DNA of 64,000 bases. Origin: Methanogenium organophilum. Its GTDB lineage: Archaea; Halobacteriota; Methanomicrobia; Methanomicrobiales; Methanomicrobiaceae. This document shows, piece by piece, positions 1 through 8,291 of this stretch. The translations under genes and the position numbers were made by a program. The notes under the pieces are model-generated. The model was not told where the DNA came from. It saw only the letters and a program-made list of their open reading frames with translations, and searched no databases. Where the stretch lies: positions 1,178,001-1,242,000 of the forward strand of contig NZ_CP113361.1 in the NCBI RefSeq assembly GCF_026684035.1. The letters are read 5' to 3'. Numbering within the stretch: the first letter of the stretch is position 1; each line of letters opens with the position of its first letter.

Positions 1-1454
1 GAAACAAAGAGGAATGACGAGAGTCCTTCAGCAGAACCTGCCTCGAGGATCATCTTTCCGTCAGCGGTAGTACCCACGGAGCGCAGGGTCAACACCTCTG
101 CGGTTCCGTCATCCAGGATATGCACGAGCCGCAGGGCAGAGAGGCCGCCTGCCTGTGTTATGCATGTCGGGTCTGCCGTGATGCGGATGGTCACATCGCC
201 AACATCCACCCCATTTTCAAGGCCGCGTTTATCAACGTCCATCATCCAGCCAGCGGTGTCGACTGCCATGCCTTCAGTATCAAGTGCTGCGTTTGAAGCA
301 CTCAGCATTGCTGCCGGAACATCCGAAAGACCGGAGAGAGGGGTCACAACCACATCAATATCTGCGTCCATCGGAACCGTCATGAGGGAGACAACGAGGC
401 CAATTTCGGGAGTTGCCCCGTTTGCACAGGTCACCGTAACCGGTGTGGTCTCGACGGTGACATCAGCGATCTCCCCTGAGATTACCCCGCTCTTGTCGGT
501 GAAATCAGTAAAGCGGAGCTTTAAAACAACATCATCACGGGTGATGAGCATCGTGTTTCCGTCAAATGTGATCTCATCGCCGGCGGACGTTGCCATGGGG
601 ACATTGACCGTCAGGTACATCCGACCCTCACTTAAACTGAGGTCAGATCCCGGCGGGAGAGAGAGCGGATAGGAGACAGCATCTGCCGTTACACCAGAGC
701 CCGTTTCGGTTTCTCCGGTTTCAGCGGATGAACCACCGGAAGCAGGGGCACTGCTTGTCTCCACCTTGTAATAAAATGACTTCGGTGACTGTTCGGGTGT
801 CTGGCTCATCGACTCGCTGTAGTACCAGATCACCTCGTCACCGGTTGAAACCGGTTCGTTATCAGCAGTCACTCCTGGCGAAATGCCATTCACCTGGTAC
901 ATCCAGCCGGCCAAGTCTTTGTTGGGTGTCCCGTCCACTTCAATAACAAAGAGACCGCCGTCCCACTTGTCGCTTACCTTGAAACTGATGCCTGCTTTCT
1001 TCAGGACCCCAAGGGCGCTTTGCCATGAAACAGGATAGGTTTCATCGGAGTTGTCAGCGATAACATTGAATGTTCCCGTTGGCAGGATGACGGACTTCCA
1101 GACGATTGACGGGGTGTCCCCGCCGCCGCCTCCACCGCCAGGTGAGGGTGTGGGGGTAGGCGCAGTGATCGTAATACTCTGTGGGGCGGAAATCTCTCCG
1201 GTGACTGGATCAGTCGCGGAGAAGGTGACCACTCCATCTGCCGGCGGAATAAACTTCACCGTCGTTCCATGGGCAAAGATTGGTGTGCCACCGTTATATT
1301 GAAAGGCGACAGTCCCTTCCATATCGAGCGTAACTGTCACCGGTTGACCCCCCCCATCCTGAGTGACACTCAGGACGCTGATCGCGGCAGCAGGCGCCGC
1401 CGTACAGACGAGGAGGGCGAGGATGACTATACAGATTTCTACAGCACGGTGCAT
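1..1454 (-). CDS. Secreted DUF4430 (transcobalamin-like) surface protein, 3' end outside window
   Basis: The frame is open from an ATG at 1454 to the window edge, so only the first 484 residues or so are seen. It starts with a signal peptide (hydrophobic residues about 6-24), then a short beta-rich segment, a Thr/Pro/Gly linker and a DUF4430 domain at about residues 118-210 with the typical ending GWMYQVNG...GDEVIWYYS. DUF4430 is related to the C-terminal domain of transcobalamin and intrinsic factor. The remainder is a beta-rich region resembling those in PGF-type methanogen surface proteins. The start overlaps the upstream gene by 16 nt, which suggests translational coupling. Because btuC and btuD lie just upstream, a role in capturing corrinoids at the surface is inferred, not shown. 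DUF4430 proteins may also bind other ligands. Confidence 0.8.
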   Translation of the reverse strand, partial: MHRAVEICIVILALLVCTAAPAAAISVLSVTQDGGGQPVTVTLDMEGTVAFQYNGGTPIFAHGTTVKFIPPADGVVTFSATDPVTGEISAPQSITITAPTPTPSPGGGGGGGDTPSIVWKSVILPTGTFNVIADNSDETYPVSWQSALGVLKKAGISFKVSDKWDGGLFVIEVDGTPNKDLAGWMYQVNGISPGVTADNEPVSTGDEVIWYYSESMSQTPEQSPKSFYYKVETSSAPASGGSSAETGETETGSGVTADAVSYPLSLPPGSDLSLSEGRMYLTVNVPMATSAGDEITFDGNTMLITRDDVVLKLRFTDFTDKSGVISGEIADVTVETTPVTVTCANGATPEIGLVVSLMTVPMDADIDVVVTPLSGLSDVPAAMLSASNAALDTEGMAVDTAGWMMDVDKRGLENGVDVGDVTIRITADPTCITQAGGLSALRLVHILDDGTAEVLTLRSVGTTADGKMILEAGSAEGLSSFLFV

Positions 1455-3325
1455 ACGATTCCCTCAGAGGTGACCGGCTTAGTATATGGGAATGTGTCGA
1501 AGGTGTACACCGCCGCAAAGAGTTCATATTCACCGGCAGGGGTGTTCAGGGGTACCTGTACATACACTGGAATACCGGTCTTTTCTGTTGCTGCTTCTAA
1601 TTCTACAGTGGCAAGTCCTGACAGACTGTTTCCTTCGTCATCAACACCGGAGACATCGATCACATACCATCCCGGAGATGTCTTCGTCACGTTCAGGCGT
1701 GCAAGGAATGAACTGCCCGGAGAAACTTCAGTATCTGCAATGGTGAAGACACCAATATCATCTTCAGGCACAGTCACGTGTACGGTCACGAGGTTGGGGA
1801 CACCGGTTGTTTCAGCTGGAAGAACGTCGCCCCACCCGGAGTACCAGAATGAGAAGGTGTCACCGTCACGGGCGACTGCATCAAGCCCAATGCCGGAGGC
1901 AACACCGTTGTCGAACTGCTGCCAATAATAACCGGTAACAGGGTCATACCCCATATCTCCGAGGAGATTTAACGAAGAGCCCCATGTCCCGGCAGAGGTA
2001 TCAATAGTAAACCCACAGGCCTCTGATGCAGCATGAATGGCACCTGCCCCAGTTGTTTCGTTTACGAGGGTGCCGTCAGTCAGCGCTATCTGCACTCCTT
2101 CGTGGAGGATGACGGTGGTTTCACAGGCAGCACCCGGACCAAATGCAAAGAGCGTGTTCGTGTACTCGGCGCCAATATAGAGAGTCCCGTCAGCAACTGC
2201 AGGCGAGGAACCCCAGAACGAGGCCCAGTTGTCTCCTTCCGGTGTAGGAAGCGTATAGGACCAGACTTCTGTGCCGTCTGCAGCATCGAAGGCATAGAGC
2301 GAGGACTGTTCTTCATTCGTTCCTGCATACACATAATCCCCTGCTACCACAGGTGAAACAGCAATTTTTGCTATGCCCGCATCCCATACCGGGGGTGCAG
2401 CAATATCATCTATATCAAGACAGATCAGACCAGCGTCATCCGTTCCAAGATAGAGCAAACCAGAGGTGATGTCCAGTGCCGGTGTACTGGTTGTTCCTGT
2501 TATGTCACGGGTTGCAAGGGTGCTGCCATCTGCAAGGGACAGTTCATAGAGCGTTGTTGCAGTTGTGACAAAGAGTGAATTTGTGCTGATAACCGGTACT
2601 GATTCAATGGTTGAATCAAGGGACGCATTCCATATTTCAGACCGGGTTGTTGTGTCATGCGCATACAATTCTGAAAGATTGGACGGGAAATAGACCACAC
2701 CATCTTTCGCTGCAGGAGCGGTGAAGTAGGTCGCGTTGGTCCACCCAAGGTCCCAGGCACCAAATGCCACAGACCATTCCTCACTGCCGTCTGCCGGGTC
2801 ATAGACATGCAGACCGCCGTCAGATGGAGTCAGTTGATAGAGAAGACCATCATAATAAAGCGGAGATGAGGAGAGACCAAACCATCCGGGGTTTTCATCC
2901 GCCTGAACTGACCACTCCACAGTGCCATCCGCGGTGTTGAGAGCATAGATATACCCGTCTGAACCGCCAACGATGAGCATATCATCTGCAATCGTAAGGC
3001 CAGCCTCAGATCCAACTTCATACGTCCATACCTTTTCTCCTGTTGCAGTATCATAACAGAAGACTGCAGGAACAGCTTCGGGGTGGTTCCAGTCGGCAAT
3101 GGTGGCGATATAGACATACCCATCCTTCACCACCGGAGAGGAATCAATCCAGCCCGGAGAAACCGACCATCGGATATTCTCTGAGAGGGGGCCTGCATCC
3201 GCGACGTAGCCCGTCCGCTGGGCATCGCCGTGGAATGTCAGGTAATCTGCTGCGCTGCATCCCTGCACCATGATGAGAAGCACCATGATGAAAAGGGAGA
3301 AACTGATACCTTTCTTGACAGTCAT
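1439..3325 (-). CDS. Secreted PQQ-type beta-propeller protein with DUF4430-like domain
   Basis: About 628 residues from the ATG at 3325; a TTG two codons earlier is less likely. The N-terminus is a signal sequence with a lipobox-like VQGC. Residues about 30-400 are repeated WD/PQQ-like blades (motifs such as DGYVYIA, GGSDGYIYALN, DGTVEWSV), as in outer-surface beta-propellers. After the propeller comes a domain starting near CETTVILHEG and ending GDTFSFWYSGWG, which matches the DUF4430 pattern. The last 120 residues look like an Ig or cohesin-type beta sandwich. It has its own AT-rich upstream region (3326-3464) and overlaps the next DUF4430 gene. The blades probably serve as a scaffold; no PQQ enzyme activity is implied. 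The ligand is unknown. Confidence 0.8.
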   Translation of the reverse strand: MTVKKGISFSLFIMVLLIMVQGCSAADYLTFHGDAQRTGYVADAGPLSENIRWSVSPGWIDSSPVVKDGYVYIATIADWNHPEAVPAVFCYDTATGEKVWTYEVGSEAGLTIADDMLIVGGSDGYIYALNTADGTVEWSVQADENPGWFGLSSSPLYYDGLLYQLTPSDGGLHVYDPADGSEEWSVAFGAWDLGWTNATYFTAPAAKDGVVYFPSNLSELYAHDTTTRSEIWNASLDSTIESVPVISTNSLFVTTATTLYELSLADGSTLATRDITGTTSTPALDITSGLLYLGTDDAGLICLDIDDIAAPPVWDAGIAKIAVSPVVAGDYVYAGTNEEQSSLYAFDAADGTEVWSYTLPTPEGDNWASFWGSSPAVADGTLYIGAEYTNTLFAFGPGAACETTVILHEGVQIALTDGTLVNETTGAGAIHAASEACGFTIDTSAGTWGSSLNLLGDMGYDPVTGYYWQQFDNGVASGIGLDAVARDGDTFSFWYSGWGDVLPAETTGVPNLVTVHVTVPEDDIGVFTIADTEVSPGSSFLARLNVTKTSPGWYVIDVSGVDDEGNSLSGLATVELEAATEKTGIPVYVQVPLNTPAGEYELFAAVYTFDTFPYTKPVTSEGIVCTVL

Positions 3326-3464
3326 ACACAATCATCTCGATAATAAATCAAACATATCTGATCAAATAATATTTATTTATGTCTAAATTCTCTTATTTCA
3401 ATAAATATCAGTCCAAATTTGAAAATAGGAAAACAATGATTTTTTTGCTTTTTTACGCCGCGTA
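3326..3464 (-). promoter_or_regulatory. AT-rich promoter region of the DUF4430/PQQ pair
   Basis: This spacer between btuD and the PQQ-type gene is very AT-rich. On the minus strand it has a TATA-like run (ATAAATAAATATT, about 3367-3380) some 45 nt before the ATG, and a TGATCA palindrome beside it. It suggests the two surface genes can be transcribed apart from btuCD. Confidence 0.45.
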
Positions 3465-4706
3465 TCAGGATTTAACAAGCGCTTTAATTGCTTTATAGAG
3501 GGCGTGACGTGAAGAAACAACCGGACAACCGGCATCCCGGATCGCTGAAAGGAAAGACAGGTCTCCTTCCTGCGTGCAGTCGGCAAATGCTTCTCCCGGA
3601 GGCTCATAGATCACCAGACGGGAACGCCGGGACCCAGAGACTGCATGGATATTCGGCAGGTTGCCAACCCCGACCGGCATCGCGGTAAGGAGGATGACAT
3701 CTGCCTCATCAAGGTAGGATCCAAGGGCATCTGAGACAGCAGTCGTGATAGGGGCAAAGGCCGGCACCGTGATACAGGGAATCCCGAGACGTACTGCTGC
3801 CGCATAATCTGAGTCCATGGGTGAGAGAACACCTGCTGAGAGGTGACAACCTGCCGCTACAAGCGTGTGCATCAGACCCGCACCAGTCCCTCCACCGGAG
3901 ATGATGTGGATGCGGACACCCTGCAGTTCAGAAGGCACACCCTCACTCAGGGGCATGATGAGCGGCCGCCCGGTGACAGGGTTGGTCTGCACCATCGCTG
4001 TGATGCCGTACTCATCGCGCAAACGCTCCATCGTGAGTACTTCAGCGGGGGTGCCTATCGCCCGTACACGGCCGCCTGCCATGAGGATGATCCGGTCACA
4101 GAACTCGGCGGCAAGGTTCAGGTCATGGAATACCCCAATCTTTGTGACACTCTCACCCAGATCACGAATGATGGAGAGGATCTCCACCTGATGGTTGATA
4201 TCGAGGTGGGCCGTTGCTTCATCGAGGAGGATCACCTTCGGCTGCTGAGCAAGTGCACGGGCGATGATCACCCGCTGCCGTTCCCCCCCGGAGATATCGG
4301 TCACCGCACGGTCTGCGAGGTGGGCGACATTGGTCACCTCCATAGCCTCGCGCACGATACGGTAATCATTCGCATCCTCCTTCGTGAACCGTTCCTTATA
4401 GGGGAACCGCCCCATCATAACGATATCTACTACGGTATAGGAGAAGTTCATCGCCGTCTCTTGGGGAACGACACTCATAATGCGGGCAAGTTCCTTCTGT
4501 CCAAAGTCGCTGATGGCCCGCCCCTCAAGGGTCACAACACCGCCGGAAGTGTTCAGTACCCGGCTTATTGTCTTCAGAAGTGTCGTCTTCCCCGAGCCGT
4601 TCGGACCGATTATCCCAATGAATTCCCCTTTTTCTGCCCCAAACGAGATCTCACGGATGATATCCTCACCGCCATACCCGGCACGGAGATCGTTCACATC
4701 GATCAT
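3465..4706 (-). CDS. btuD: Corrinoid/iron-siderophore type ABC transporter ATPase with extra C-terminal domain
   Basis: 413 residues. The first 250 are a FecE/BtuD ATPase: Walker A GPNGSGKT at 34-41, Q82, signature SGGERQ at 139-144, Walker B VILLDEAT at 158-165, switch His194. This subunit would power import of corrinoids (or siderophores) through the BtuC permease encoded upstream; the two genes overlap by 4 nt (ATGA). Residues about 260-413 are additional: a Rossmann-like segment with GGGTGAG at 271-277, then alternating strands and helices ending in VVSSRHALYKA. BtuD proteins are usually about 250 residues. I recognise this tail as an archaeal extension but cannot assign a function. No periplasmic binding protein gene (BtuF) is seen beside it. 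Confidence 0.85.
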   Translation of the reverse strand: MIDVNDLRAGYGGEDIIREISFGAEKGEFIGIIGPNGSGKTTLLKTISRVLNTSGGVVTLEGRAISDFGQKELARIMSVVPQETAMNFSYTVVDIVMMGRFPYKERFTKEDANDYRIVREAMEVTNVAHLADRAVTDISGGERQRVIIARALAQQPKVILLDEATAHLDINHQVEILSIIRDLGESVTKIGVFHDLNLAAEFCDRIILMAGGRVRAIGTPAEVLTMERLRDEYGITAMVQTNPVTGRPLIMPLSEGVPSELQGVRIHIISGGGTGAGLMHTLVAAGCHLSAGVLSPMDSDYAAAVRLGIPCITVPAFAPITTAVSDALGSYLDEADVILLTAMPVGVGNLPNIHAVSGSRRSRLVIYEPPGEAFADCTQEGDLSFLSAIRDAGCPVVSSRHALYKAIKALVKS

Positions 4707-5728
4707 GCCCGCATCCTCCTCCTGAGGAGCATAATGAAGAATGGTGCCCCGACAAAGGAGGTGATCACACCGACCGGCATCTCCCCCAGAAACGACCGGG
4801 TGAGGGTGTCTGCGATCAGAAGGAAGAGTCCGCCTGCAAGCATTGACGCCGGAAAGAGTATCCGATGGTCAGGGCCGACGATGAGTCGCATCACATGAGG
4901 CGTAATGAGACCAATGAACCCGATGGACCCTGCGATGGAGACTGCAACGGCGGTGATCGCCGAAGAGAGAAAGAGCAGGACCCGCTTGAACTGTTCCACA
5001 TTAACTCCAAGGTGCAGCGCGTCCTCTTCTCCCAGGGAGAGAATATTCAGGTCACGGGCAAGGGCAATCAGCAGAATCCCGCCGATGGGGATCAGAAGAC
5101 CAAGCCAGACATCGTTCCATGAAACATTCCACAGACCGCCCATCAGCCAGAAAACGATCTGGTGCAGACTCTTCCCCGCAGAATACATCAAAAACGACAG
5201 AATGGATGAGAAGAACATCGATATCGCAATACCGGTCAGAAGCAGCGTCTCCACCGAGGCACGCCCATGGCGGGTTGCAATGACATAGACAAGGAAGGTG
5301 GACCCGATAGCGCCAATGAACGCAAAGACTGGTAGGAAGAGACCACCCATAAAGACAATGGTGAAGGCGGCACCAAAGGCACCTCCTGATGATGTTCCGA
5401 TGATATAGGGGTCTGCCATTGAATTCCTGAACAGCCCCTGCATCGCGGCACCGGCGGCTGCAAGACCTGCACCGACGAGAATCGCCGCAATCACCCGTGG
5501 CAGGCGGATAGAGTAGACGATGAGGTACGACGTCTGGTCAGAGAAGAAGCCCGCGATGTCACCGCCTGAGAAGAGCGTTCCAAGCATTCCCAGTGGATCG
5601 TCCGGGATGAACTCTGAAAACGGCACCGTCGTCGGGCCAAGACTCAGTGCCAAAAAAAATGCACCGGCAAGCATGGCTGTGAGGAAAGTGATGATACTGA
5701 CAGTGCGGACACGTGAGATCTCTGGCAT
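4703..5728 (-). CDS. btuC: FecCD-family ABC permease, BtuC-like
   Basis: The protein has 341 residues from the ATG at 5728 (MPEISRVR). An upstream TTG at 5782 would overlap comDE but lacks support. It is a ten-helix permease of the FecCD family, with the usual motifs RLPRVIAAILVGAGLAAAG near residue 75, GxIGFIGLITPHxMR near 270 and GEMPVGVITSFVGAPFF near the end. The family imports vitamin B12, heme or siderophores with a BtuD-type ATPase, here encoded directly downstream. Corrinoid is the likeliest substrate because both downstream genes encode transcobalamin-like domains, but the permease alone does not prove it. Confidence 0.88.
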   Translation of the reverse strand: MPEISRVRTVSIITFLTAMLAGAFFLALSLGPTTVPFSEFIPDDPLGMLGTLFSGGDIAGFFSDQTSYLIVYSIRLPRVIAAILVGAGLAAAGAAMQGLFRNSMADPYIIGTSSGGAFGAAFTIVFMGGLFLPVFAFIGAIGSTFLVYVIATRHGRASVETLLLTGIAISMFFSSILSFLMYSAGKSLHQIVFWLMGGLWNVSWNDVWLGLLIPIGGILLIALARDLNILSLGEEDALHLGVNVEQFKRVLLFLSSAITAVAVSIAGSIGFIGLITPHVMRLIVGPDHRILFPASMLAGGLFLLIADTLTRSFLGEMPVGVITSFVGAPFFIMLLRRRMRA

Positions 5729-5774: not shown

Positions 5775-6941
5775 TTAACCAAACAGAGTTTGTTTCATCG
5801 CAGGAGACCAGACCGCTCCCATGAAGCGGTCCCTGATGTCGCGTGCCCGCAGCGGGATGGATGGTACATGTGCATTGCCTGGAGCGATTACCGCATGGAT
5901 AAAGAACGGCCCGGGCTTTCGGGACCGATATGCCACGCGGATGCTCTCCTCGTCCTGCGCCTTGCAGGTCCGTACAAGGCCTGCCCCACGGGCAAGCAGT
6001 TCAAGATCAGCCACCGCATACGAATGGGTCAGCTGGTCACCTGTGCTGCCAAACGAACCGTTGTCGAGAGCAATTATGGTGAGATTTTTCGGTGCCTCTG
6101 CGCCCACCACCGGCAGAATTGCGGTCCCAAGGAGGCTGCCATCCCCGTCAAATACGACCACATCCCTGTCCTGTCCGAGGGCCAGTCCCAGCCCGATGGG
6201 TGTCGCCTGCGTATAACTTCCCATCATGTAGAAGTTCTCGGGCCGGTCTCGGGCCGCATAGAGTTCTGTTGACGGTATTCCAAGGTTCACAACCGCCAGT
6301 TCATCGGTGAGAAGGGGGGTTACCGCACCAATGGCATCTACCCGTCTCCAGACGGGCTCTGTTATTGTACGTTCGTATGTCAGGCTAATGTCACGACTCC
6401 GGGGAGGGAGGAACGGAGGGGGCGGATGTCCGGCAGTCCCTCCAATTCCCTCCCAGACCTTCGGGGAGACAAGAATGATATGCGGGCGGTGATGTTCAAA
6501 GGCATCGGCCACCGCCCCTTCGATGCGGTCAAGGTCTCCCGCCTCATGGATCACCGTATAGACGATGTCCATCGCGTCCAACAGATCGGGGAGATGAATA
6601 TTAAATGGCATCTGCACCTCAACTCTCTCGCGATGAATGCCCCGCCACGAGGCAAGGACCGGGAGCGGAAGTTCGTAGGGCACGGAAAGGGTCATGATCG
6701 CATTGAGCATCGTGCCTAAGCCGGAACTCTGGATATGCATCATCGGACGGTTGCCAGCGAGAAAGAGACCGGCACAGAGACCGACACCATCCTCTTCCCG
6801 GAGCACCGTGATGTTGCGAAAACTCGCCTCAATCAGGGAAAAGAGCACCTGTGTCCGGTCGCAGGGCAGACTAACCACAGTATCCACACCAGCCGCGGCA
6901 GCATACCGCAGGGCACTCTCCTCATGCACCGTAAACCACAC
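5775..6941 (-). CDS. comDE: Sulfopyruvate decarboxylase, fused ComD-ComE
   Basis: 388 residues. It decarboxylates sulfopyruvate to sulfoacetaldehyde in coenzyme M synthesis, using thiamine diphosphate. Residues 1-165 match ComD (SLPCDRT, REEDGVG with the catalytic Glu near 50). A proline-rich linker (about 170-182) joins this to the ComE half, which has the TPP/Mg motif GDGS at 266-269 and the downstream DNGSFGSTG. ComD and ComE are separate in Methanocaldococcus; the single-chain form is known in other methanogens. The ORF opens with GTG at 6941, with AGGAG abutting it; a second GTG at 6929 has a better-spaced ribosome site and may be the true start. It lies between a COG1900 gene and btuC on the same strand. 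Confidence 0.92.
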   Translation of the reverse strand: MWFTVHEESALRYAAAAGVDTVVSLPCDRTQVLFSLIEASFRNITVLREEDGVGLCAGLFLAGNRPMMHIQSSGLGTMLNAIMTLSVPYELPLPVLASWRGIHRERVEVQMPFNIHLPDLLDAMDIVYTVIHEAGDLDRIEGAVADAFEHHRPHIILVSPKVWEGIGGTAGHPPPPFLPPRSRDISLTYERTITEPVWRRVDAIGAVTPLLTDELAVVNLGIPSTELYAARDRPENFYMMGSYTQATPIGLGLALGQDRDVVVFDGDGSLLGTAILPVVGAEAPKNLTIIALDNGSFGSTGDQLTHSYAVADLELLARGAGLVRTCKAQDEESIRVAYRSRKPGPFFIHAVIAPGNAHVPSIPLRARDIRDRFMGAVWSPAMKQTLFG

Positions 6942-7058
6942 TCCTGATGAACATCTGCCAGACTCCTGTAGGTATCGTTTCCATATTAAAGATAATGGCT
7001 ACAGAAGCTATCGATGAAAGGAAGAGATACTGACGATGAATACGACAGAATAGGGCAT

Positions 7059-8291
7059 TCATATCTGGAACTCCCCCCTGATAAGCTGGTCCTTCAGATA
7101 GTCACAGAGCGCCTCCGCCCGTGAGCGATCCGACTGCCGGAGCACAACGGGCGCAGTTGCGCCGCTGTCATCTTTTAGATGCAAAGCACCTGTCGCCATT
7201 GTATAGACCCCGTTCACGCAGCTCTGTACACACGTCCCGCAGGAGACACAGCGGGAATGCATGATGCCGCCGCCCATCATGATCGCCCGCGTCGGGCAGG
7301 CTTCAGCGGCAGAGCATGTCCCGCAGAATAGACAACGGAGCGGGTCCACCTGCACCATGCGGTCGGTTCCCTGCCAGACATCCGCATACGTAGCGGCCGA
7401 GAAGGGGAGACGATCGGAAATATCAGCTACCGGGAGGGGGATCTGATCATCTGTTACTGAAAGACAGGCGATGTCCCCTGCGGTGAGAACGGGTAGGGCG
7501 ACAGCAATCGAGGTGAGGCATTCAGGGCCGTGAGCTGTCACAAATCCGCCCAGATATTCAGGATCCATCGCACTAAGCTCGGCGGAGGCGGCGATGCAGC
7601 GGTGTTCTGGTGTGCTTCGGGTGCCTTCCCCAATCACGATCCCTGAAGCACCGTTTAAAAGGAGCGGTGTGCCCGGCCGCATATGGGTAAGGGAGGGATC
7701 GTTTTCGACCGGGTTAACCTCTCCACATCCGGAGACAGTTGCTGCACTCATGTTGCCTTCGAAAGGAAAAACCGAGAAGATGGTGCGGACGGGATCAGGC
7801 CCGCGGTTCACAAATGCAGTATAATTGCGGAAACAACTGCGAGTAGTGACAATGCGGGCACCGGATAGATCCTCGATATATATTTCGGTTTCAAAGGTCA
7901 TTTCTCCGGCCTGGGCCATCACTTCGACCTCTCTGCCGTCCACAATGTCCCGGAAGAGGTGGCCGCCTCCATAGGTCTCGGATGCAGCAGCGGTGCCATA
8001 GACGATGAGGTCAACGGTGCCCAGCCGTTCATTCGGGCAGGGTCCAGGGAAGGTCGGGACACCATTTAGGGTGACTGCATCCGCCCGGAGAAATGCACCG
8101 GGCTCTGCAACAGGGACCGTAAGAACAGCAGTGGTTCCGGACATGATCCCAAAAGTGCCGGTGGTTACGACATCCACCTCATCTTCGGTAGGAATATCTC
8201 CCTTTCGCACCCGTTCCTTCATCTCCATCGCCGTCCAGACAGTGGCCTCCCCCTCGATCAGCCGCTTCCGGACATCCTGCATCGTCTTCAT
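7059..8291 (-). CDS. COG1900 (DUF39) sulfur-transfer protein with two [4Fe-4S] ferredoxin motifs
   Basis: 410 residues. The N-terminal three quarters belong to COG1900/DUF39, whose Methanosarcina member MA1821 is needed to make homocysteine from aspartate semialdehyde. Candidate sulfur-carrying cysteines are Cys85 (PGPCPNE), Cys153 (RSCFRNY) and Cys189. The C-terminal part has two iron-sulfur motifs, with cysteines at 320, 323, 326, 332 and at 348, 351, 354, 358. The gene is 117 nt upstream of comDE on the same strand. This supports a sulfur-insertion role in coenzyme M synthesis (sulfoacetaldehyde to coenzyme M) as an alternative to homocysteine synthesis. That choice is inference from position. 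Confidence 0.8.
   Translation of the reverse strand: MKTMQDVRKRLIEGEATVWTAMEMKERVRKGDIPTEDEVDVVTTGTFGIMSGTTAVLTVPVAEPGAFLRADAVTLNGVPTFPGPCPNERLGTVDLIVYGTAAASETYGGGHLFRDIVDGREVEVMAQAGEMTFETEIYIEDLSGARIVTTRSCFRNYTAFVNRGPDPVRTIFSVFPFEGNMSAATVSGCGEVNPVENDPSLTHMRPGTPLLLNGASGIVIGEGTRSTPEHRCIAASAELSAMDPEYLGGFVTAHGPECLTSIAVALPVLTAGDIACLSVTDDQIPLPVADISDRLPFSAATYADVWQGTDRMVQVDPLRCLFCGTCSAAEACPTRAIMMGGGIMHSRCVSCGTCVQSCVNGVYTMATGALHLKDDSGATAPVVLRQSDRSRAEALCDYLKDQLIRGEFQI

Follow-up and report, generated by a model that had tools for sequence, protein, structure and literature searches.

Beside the btuC and btuD genes of Methanogenium organophilum lie genes for putative surface proteins with DUF4430-type domains, and we asked which binding protein this importer uses and what the surface proteins may do next to it. 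We examined a window of 64,000 nucleotides (C1:1178001-1242000) from a genome of 2.65 Mb that is contained in one contig. On the minus strand, the order of genes in the window was comDE (sulfopyruvate decarboxylase), btuC, btuD, a PQQ propeller gene and a DUF4430 gene that crosses the window edge (Table 1). The initial annotation had called btuC and btuD, and had placed DUF4430-type domains in both genes that follow, one of them fused to a beta-propeller; the matches in Table 1 agree with all of these calls. Both neighbours of btuC overlap it, btuD by 4 bp and comDE, upstream, by 8 bp. In window 5775-8291 (minus strand), the comDE gene of coenzyme M biosynthesis has a methanogenesis marker 16 / homocysteine-biosynthesis gene just upstream, and the order marker 16 / homocysteine-biosynthesis gene, comDE, btuC was common to Methanogenium and one other genus (g4; L046, L049). 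A single transcript may cover the genes for coenzyme M synthesis and for corrinoid uptake; coenzyme M and corrinoid both serve the Mtr step. A search for RNA families, including cobalamin riboswitches, gave no match in the window.

Table 1. Features of the btuCD locus; positions refer to the window unless C1 or L007 coordinates are given.
Feature	Position	Strand	Evidence
btuC, FecCD-type permease of BtuCDF importer, 359 aa	4703..5782	-	FecCD E=6e-90; PRK09535 349 bits
btuD, ATPase, 413 aa	3465..4706	-	ABC_tran E=5e-31; PRK09536 357 bits
Secreted PQQ/BamB-type beta-propeller with degenerate C-terminal DUF4430, 630 aa	1439..3331	-	PQQ_2 E=5e-39
C-terminal domain of the propeller protein, degenerate DUF4430-like (transcobalamin beta-type)	1817..2146	-	hhalign prob 96.5, E=9.2e-10
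Putatively surface-anchored DUF4430 protein, 540 aa in full	1..1454, running ~168 bp past base 1	-	DUF4430 E=6e-10
DUF4430 domain of the surface protein	810..1091	-	AlphaFold2 + Foldseek: predicted transcobalamin beta-domain fold
Toroid-BtuF fusion gene, 667 aa	C1:1175828-1177831 (= L007:10828-12831), ~170-2170 bp before window base 1	-	Peripla_BP_2
Anchored WD40-propeller protein gene, after the toroid-BtuF gene	C1:1174722-1175945, outside the window		

The initial annotation had also reported that no BtuF lies next to btuCD. This proved to be an artefact of the window edge, because the window ends before the gene in question, which lies 169 bp outside it. The whole-genome search recovered three Peripla_BP_2 proteins, and the best of them (C1:1176014-1176706, minus strand) is encoded directly after the DUF4430 gene that is cut by the window, on the same strand. 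The protein, hereafter toroid-BtuF, combines a signal peptide, an alpha/alpha toroid (residues ~33-323), a BtuF domain (residues 376-606, E=1.9e-39) and a C-terminal hydrophobic anchor. Permease, ATPase and Peripla_BP_2 binding protein are therefore encoded together, and the gene set of a BtuFCD importer is present. The remaining two Peripla_BP_2 proteins were considered as partners of this importer and rejected, since each is found beside its own FecCD permease and ATPase. We also rejected an assembly or frame artefact as the origin of toroid-BtuF, as the protein is full-length in 32 genomes and cut by a contig end in a 33rd. The suggestion that a DUF4430 protein takes the role of a missing BtuF has practically nothing left to it: only the truncated view from the window speaks for it, and BtuF adjoins the DUF4430 gene and is linked to the importer both here and in the relatives examined.

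Three FecCD-type systems were found in the genome, and the highest scores on the BtuC, BtuD and BtuF models were those of this locus. The permease scored 349 bits on the BtuC model (PRK09535) and the ATPase 357 bits on the corrinoid ABC ATPase model (PRK09536); on the same models, the other two FecCD permeases that lie beside binding proteins reached 245 and 188 bits, and the ATPases of those systems 260 and 202 bits. Toroid-BtuF scored 111 bits on the BtuF model, while the other two Peripla_BP_2 proteins gave 28 bits and no match, respectively. All three proteins stay below the NCBIfam equivalog cut-offs (BtuC 349/461, BtuD 357/537 and BtuF 111/234 bits), though these were their best or near-best models; such scores might be what is expected of a divergent archaeal lineage. 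BtuD carries a C-terminal extension of ~150 aa, a feature that it shares with the 402-aa corrinoid ATPase model. Among solved structures, the BtuF domain matched the vitamin-B12-binding BtuF proteins of V. cholerae (E=1e-31) and E. coli (~1e-22); its top PDB match is annotated as 'iron-binding protein', and heme-binding proteins matched as well. The genome encodes CbiZ, of the archaeal corrinoid-salvage amidohydrolase family, as well as CbiD, of de novo corrinoid synthesis; scavenging would therefore supplement synthesis.

The surface DUF4430 protein matched PF14478 above the Pfam cut-off and, as read from its sequence, has a signal-peptide-like N-terminus and a C-terminal hydrophobic segment with a basic tail. 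The C-terminal ~100 aa of the propeller protein gave no Pfam DUF4430 match and were assigned by profile-profile comparison with the DUF4430 family of the neighbouring gene; the propeller proteins of relatives carry one to four clear DUF4430 copies at the same place. The nearest solved structures to the PQQ propeller were those of BamB. The AlphaFold2 model of the DUF4430 domain had a pLDDT of 91.8, and in the Foldseek search against the PDB all 19 matches with a probability of at least 0.97 were to the animal cobalamin carriers transcobalamin, haptocorrin and intrinsic factor or to the putative metal-binding protein RUMGNA_00854, the next match having a probability of 0.02. The resemblance is at the level of topology (TM ~0.58, large reported rmsd, E 3e-3 to 2e-1), and the link to transcobalamin came from the fold search, the sequence-profile search of the PDB having returned nothing significant. 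DUF4430 is thus predicted to have the fold of the transcobalamin beta-domain, in line with the transcobalamin-like character that the initial annotation had given to these proteins. DUF4430 domains were also seen in tandem in surface-type proteins elsewhere, six in L069:7616-10987 and three in L068:7805-9955, with no btuCD detected in the stretches around them. A further open frame of 2349 aa in the M. organophilum genome (L010, C1:1572000-1590000) contained two sub-threshold DUF4430-like matches (E~0.005).

The toroid of toroid-BtuF matched SQHop_cyclase_C (7e-15) and Prenyltrans (9e-13). In the model of the whole chain (pLDDT 84.6), the N-terminal domain is all-helical and the C-terminal domain is of BtuF type; the best 50 matches listed in the fold search with this model were binding proteins only. 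The toroid profile search had squalene-hopene cyclases as the closest matches and found neither transcobalamin nor intrinsic factor at E<=10, and PF01122 was matched only below its cut-off, in toroids of Archaeoglobi relatives (E=0.05-0.1). A D-x-D-D-T motif was invariant in every toroid copy checked (here within L007:11863-12735); it aligns with the DVDDT segment, the acidic motif, of squalene-hopene cyclase, and a true cyclase has DTDDT. This motif could bind corrin side chains, could be structural or could mark an enzymatic function. Loci from Paenibacillus, Altiarchaeales and Myxococcota were tried as members of the system and rejected, as they hold unrelated toroid proteins or a true cyclase.

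We compared the gene order over Methanomicrobiales and found that the block is kept in several families: btuC-btuD, the propeller with DUF4430 copies, the DUF4430 protein with a conserved tail domain, toroid-BtuF and the WD40 protein. A single open frame of 1100-1700 aa covers propeller and DUF4430 in some genomes, and at three loci (L052, L058 and L059) btuCD is inverted relative to the rest and still adjacent. btuC/btuD was kept nearby at the Methanomicrobiales loci with enough flank. In a set of 46 genomes that were at least 90% complete and were searched for both proteins, toroid-BtuF was present in 20 out of 20 genomes with a strong DUF4430 match (one copy cut by a contig end) and in none of the 26 without (Fisher p=2e-13, before allowing for shared ancestry). 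Three genera (g12, g14 and g21) each hold genomes with both proteins and genomes with neither, and the association is therefore not the outcome of one single event. Most of the 26 genomes without a strong DUF4430 match had a stand-alone BtuF-type protein. In the tree of BtuF domains, several stand-alone copies are neighbours of the toroid-fused copy from their own lineage, which suggests repeated fusion, local duplication or gene conversion of the BtuF part. Six loci (L053, L055, L057, L083, L100 and L101) come from genomes with both a stand-alone BtuF and a toroid-BtuF, and several of these copies group by lineage and not by architecture.

The genome-wide scan with the toroid profile showed that the system is also present in Archaeoglobi (Geoglobus, Archaeoglobus and further MAGs). 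In these organisms DUF4430 and the toroid form one chain and BtuF is encoded by the next, separate gene; in one example (L109:8876-11173) the same chain matched DUF4430 (E=7e-18) and SQHop_cyclase_C (2e-19). The order propeller, DUF4430, toroid, BtuF is common to Methanomicrobiales and Archaeoglobi, with the gene boundary on the opposite side of the toroid. Fusions that differ in this way are commonly seen as an indication that the parts work together. btuC or btuD was found within ~4 kb at seven Archaeoglobi loci, and btuCD was not seen at three Archaeoglobi loci with ample flank. On a plasmid of Latilactobacillus curvatus (L118:5683-11325), consecutive genes encode an LPXTG anchored protein, a DUF4430 protein and all parts of an ECF importer. 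The anchored protein has no Pfam toroid and resembles the archaeal toroid by a weak tblastn match; the plasmid set is a possible mobile Gram-positive counterpart of the archaeal system.

Taken together, we consider that the locus probably encodes a surface system for corrinoid capture that feeds the BtuFCD importer and is built as a split transcobalamin. Corrinoid is the proposed ligand because the importer genes have the best model scores out of the three systems and because DUF4430 has a predicted transcobalamin fold. The DUF4430 proteins, anchored or secreted and in one case carried on a propeller scaffold, would take up corrinoid outside the cell by means of their beta-domains. The toroid would then close over the ligand together with DUF4430, as in the clamp of transcobalamin, but between two proteins, and the ligand would pass to the BtuF domain of the toroid-BtuF chain. 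BtuF would dock on BtuC, with uptake powered by BtuD, and both propellers may have a role in the process. More specifically, and more tentatively, we propose a two-protein archaeal transcobalamin whose toroid is built into the binding protein of the importer, so that corrinoid clamped with the surface DUF4430 would be handed to BtuF in the same chain; the cut between the proteins differs between Methanomicrobiales (toroid plus BtuF) and Archaeoglobi (DUF4430 plus toroid), and the arrangement would parallel the animal carriers. The initial annotation had offered two roles for the DUF4430 protein; that of replacing BtuF falls away, and that of delivering corrinoid to BtuF gains indirect support from the predicted fold, the gene order, the co-occurrence and the DUF4430-toroid chain of Archaeoglobi. 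Several observations count against a corrinoid clamp, namely the closeness of the toroid to squalene-hopene cyclases, the DXDDT motif, the iron- and heme-binding matches, CbiD, the three Archaeoglobi loci without btuCD and a fold match that is at topology level.

Some of these observations would fit the same architecture with another ligand, for which heme, an F430-like compound, a metallophore or some other tetrapyrrole or metal chelate would be candidates. The 'iron-binding protein' annotation of the best PDB match of the BtuF domain, the good matches to heme-binding proteins and the presence of CbiD point in this direction, as does the 'distinct metabolite' suggested for archaeal SLBB proteins, such archaea often making B12 (PMC1796856). 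We regard a non-corrinoid ligand as unlikely, since BtuC, BtuD and BtuF of this locus score best on the corrinoid-importer models among the three FecCD systems of the genome, DUF4430 matches cobalamin carriers and CbiZ salvage is present.

Two further readings concern single components. The DUF4430 and propeller proteins could be structural or adhesive surface proteins that are merely neighbours of btuCDF, as would be suggested by large surface-type proteins that carry tandem DUF4430 in stretches where btuCD was not detected (L065, L068 and L069). This is clearly improbable in view of the perfect co-occurrence of DUF4430 with the toroid-BtuF fusion, the single DUF4430-toroid chain of Archaeoglobi and the neighbourhood that is retained where btuCD is inverted. 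The toroid, for its part, could be an enzyme that is secreted and either resembles squalene-hopene cyclase or acts on the bound ligand, instead of half of a clamp, with DUF4430 having a separate role. The invariant motif and its alignment with the cyclase segment are in favour of an enzyme, which we nevertheless find very unlikely. Squalene-hopene cyclases have two barrels with a DXDD motif and are membrane-associated inside the cell, whereas here the motif occurs in a single toroid of ~290 aa that is fused to BtuF and preceded by a signal peptide. Moreover, the SDCDDT of the archaeal toroid corresponds, in an alignment by eye, to SDLDTT in the Latilactobacillus LPXTG protein, and this suggests that the motif may be a property of the toroid fold and not of catalysis.

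The SLBB superfamily was defined by Burroughs et al. in 2007, who described toroid fusions, propeller fusions and paired paralogous SLBB genes in operons; their account covers euryarchaea, and Methanospirillum hungatei appears in their Figure 2 (PMC1796856). For archaeal members, that paper suggested possible scavenging of 'a distinct metabolite' and left open whether corrinoid or another metabolite is bound, as many such archaea make B12 (PMC1796856). With its transcobalamin-like toroid fused to BtuF, beside DUF4430 and btuCD, the locus speaks for corrinoid scavenging, and the question becomes directly testable with a few soluble proteins. For cells that lack an outer membrane, it also suggests a way in which a device for capture at the surface may be linked to a substrate-binding protein. 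In the open-access literature searched, which leaves most subscription journals outside, we found no papers on archaeal transcobalamin-like/BtuF fusions apart from the SLBB paper of 2007. The surface family of SLBB/transcobalamin proteins has been recognised since that year, and the fusion to BtuF is the new part documented here.

The proteins of this locus resemble the SLBB surface proteins in being putatively secreted or anchored, in their toroid and propeller fusions and in the two paralogous SLBB genes per operon, whereas the text of the 2007 paper names CbiO/CbiQ-type neighbours and not BtuF, and its Figure 2 may draw part of the present neighbourhood (PMC1796856). BtuG of Bacteroides is a seven-bladed surface beta-propeller, linked to B12 transport genes and described as exclusive to Bacteroidetes (PMC6143338). 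The present locus likewise ties surface beta-propellers to B12-type transport genes, as an analogy only, but its propellers match BamB-type and WD40 structures, with no BtuG among the PDB matches listed. As in BtuFCD corrinoid importers, BtuC, BtuD and a BtuF-domain protein are encoded together for what is here a putative corrinoid transport; unlike in those importers, BtuF is extended by an N-terminal toroid and a C-terminal anchor, and genes for DUF4430 and propeller proteins join the set. In transcobalamin, two domains sandwich one B12 (PMC1796856). The locus shares with transcobalamin, intrinsic factor and haptocorrin the combination of an alpha/alpha-toroid with a DUF4430-type beta-grasp domain, whose structural match is specific to these carriers and RUMGNA_00854. 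It differs from them in that corrinoid binding is putative and the toroid is closer in sequence to squalene-hopene cyclases, and in that the two halves, which share one chain in the animal carriers, are encoded by two adjacent genes with the toroid fused to the binding protein of an ABC importer; in the Archaeoglobi relatives, the two halves are joined in one chain.
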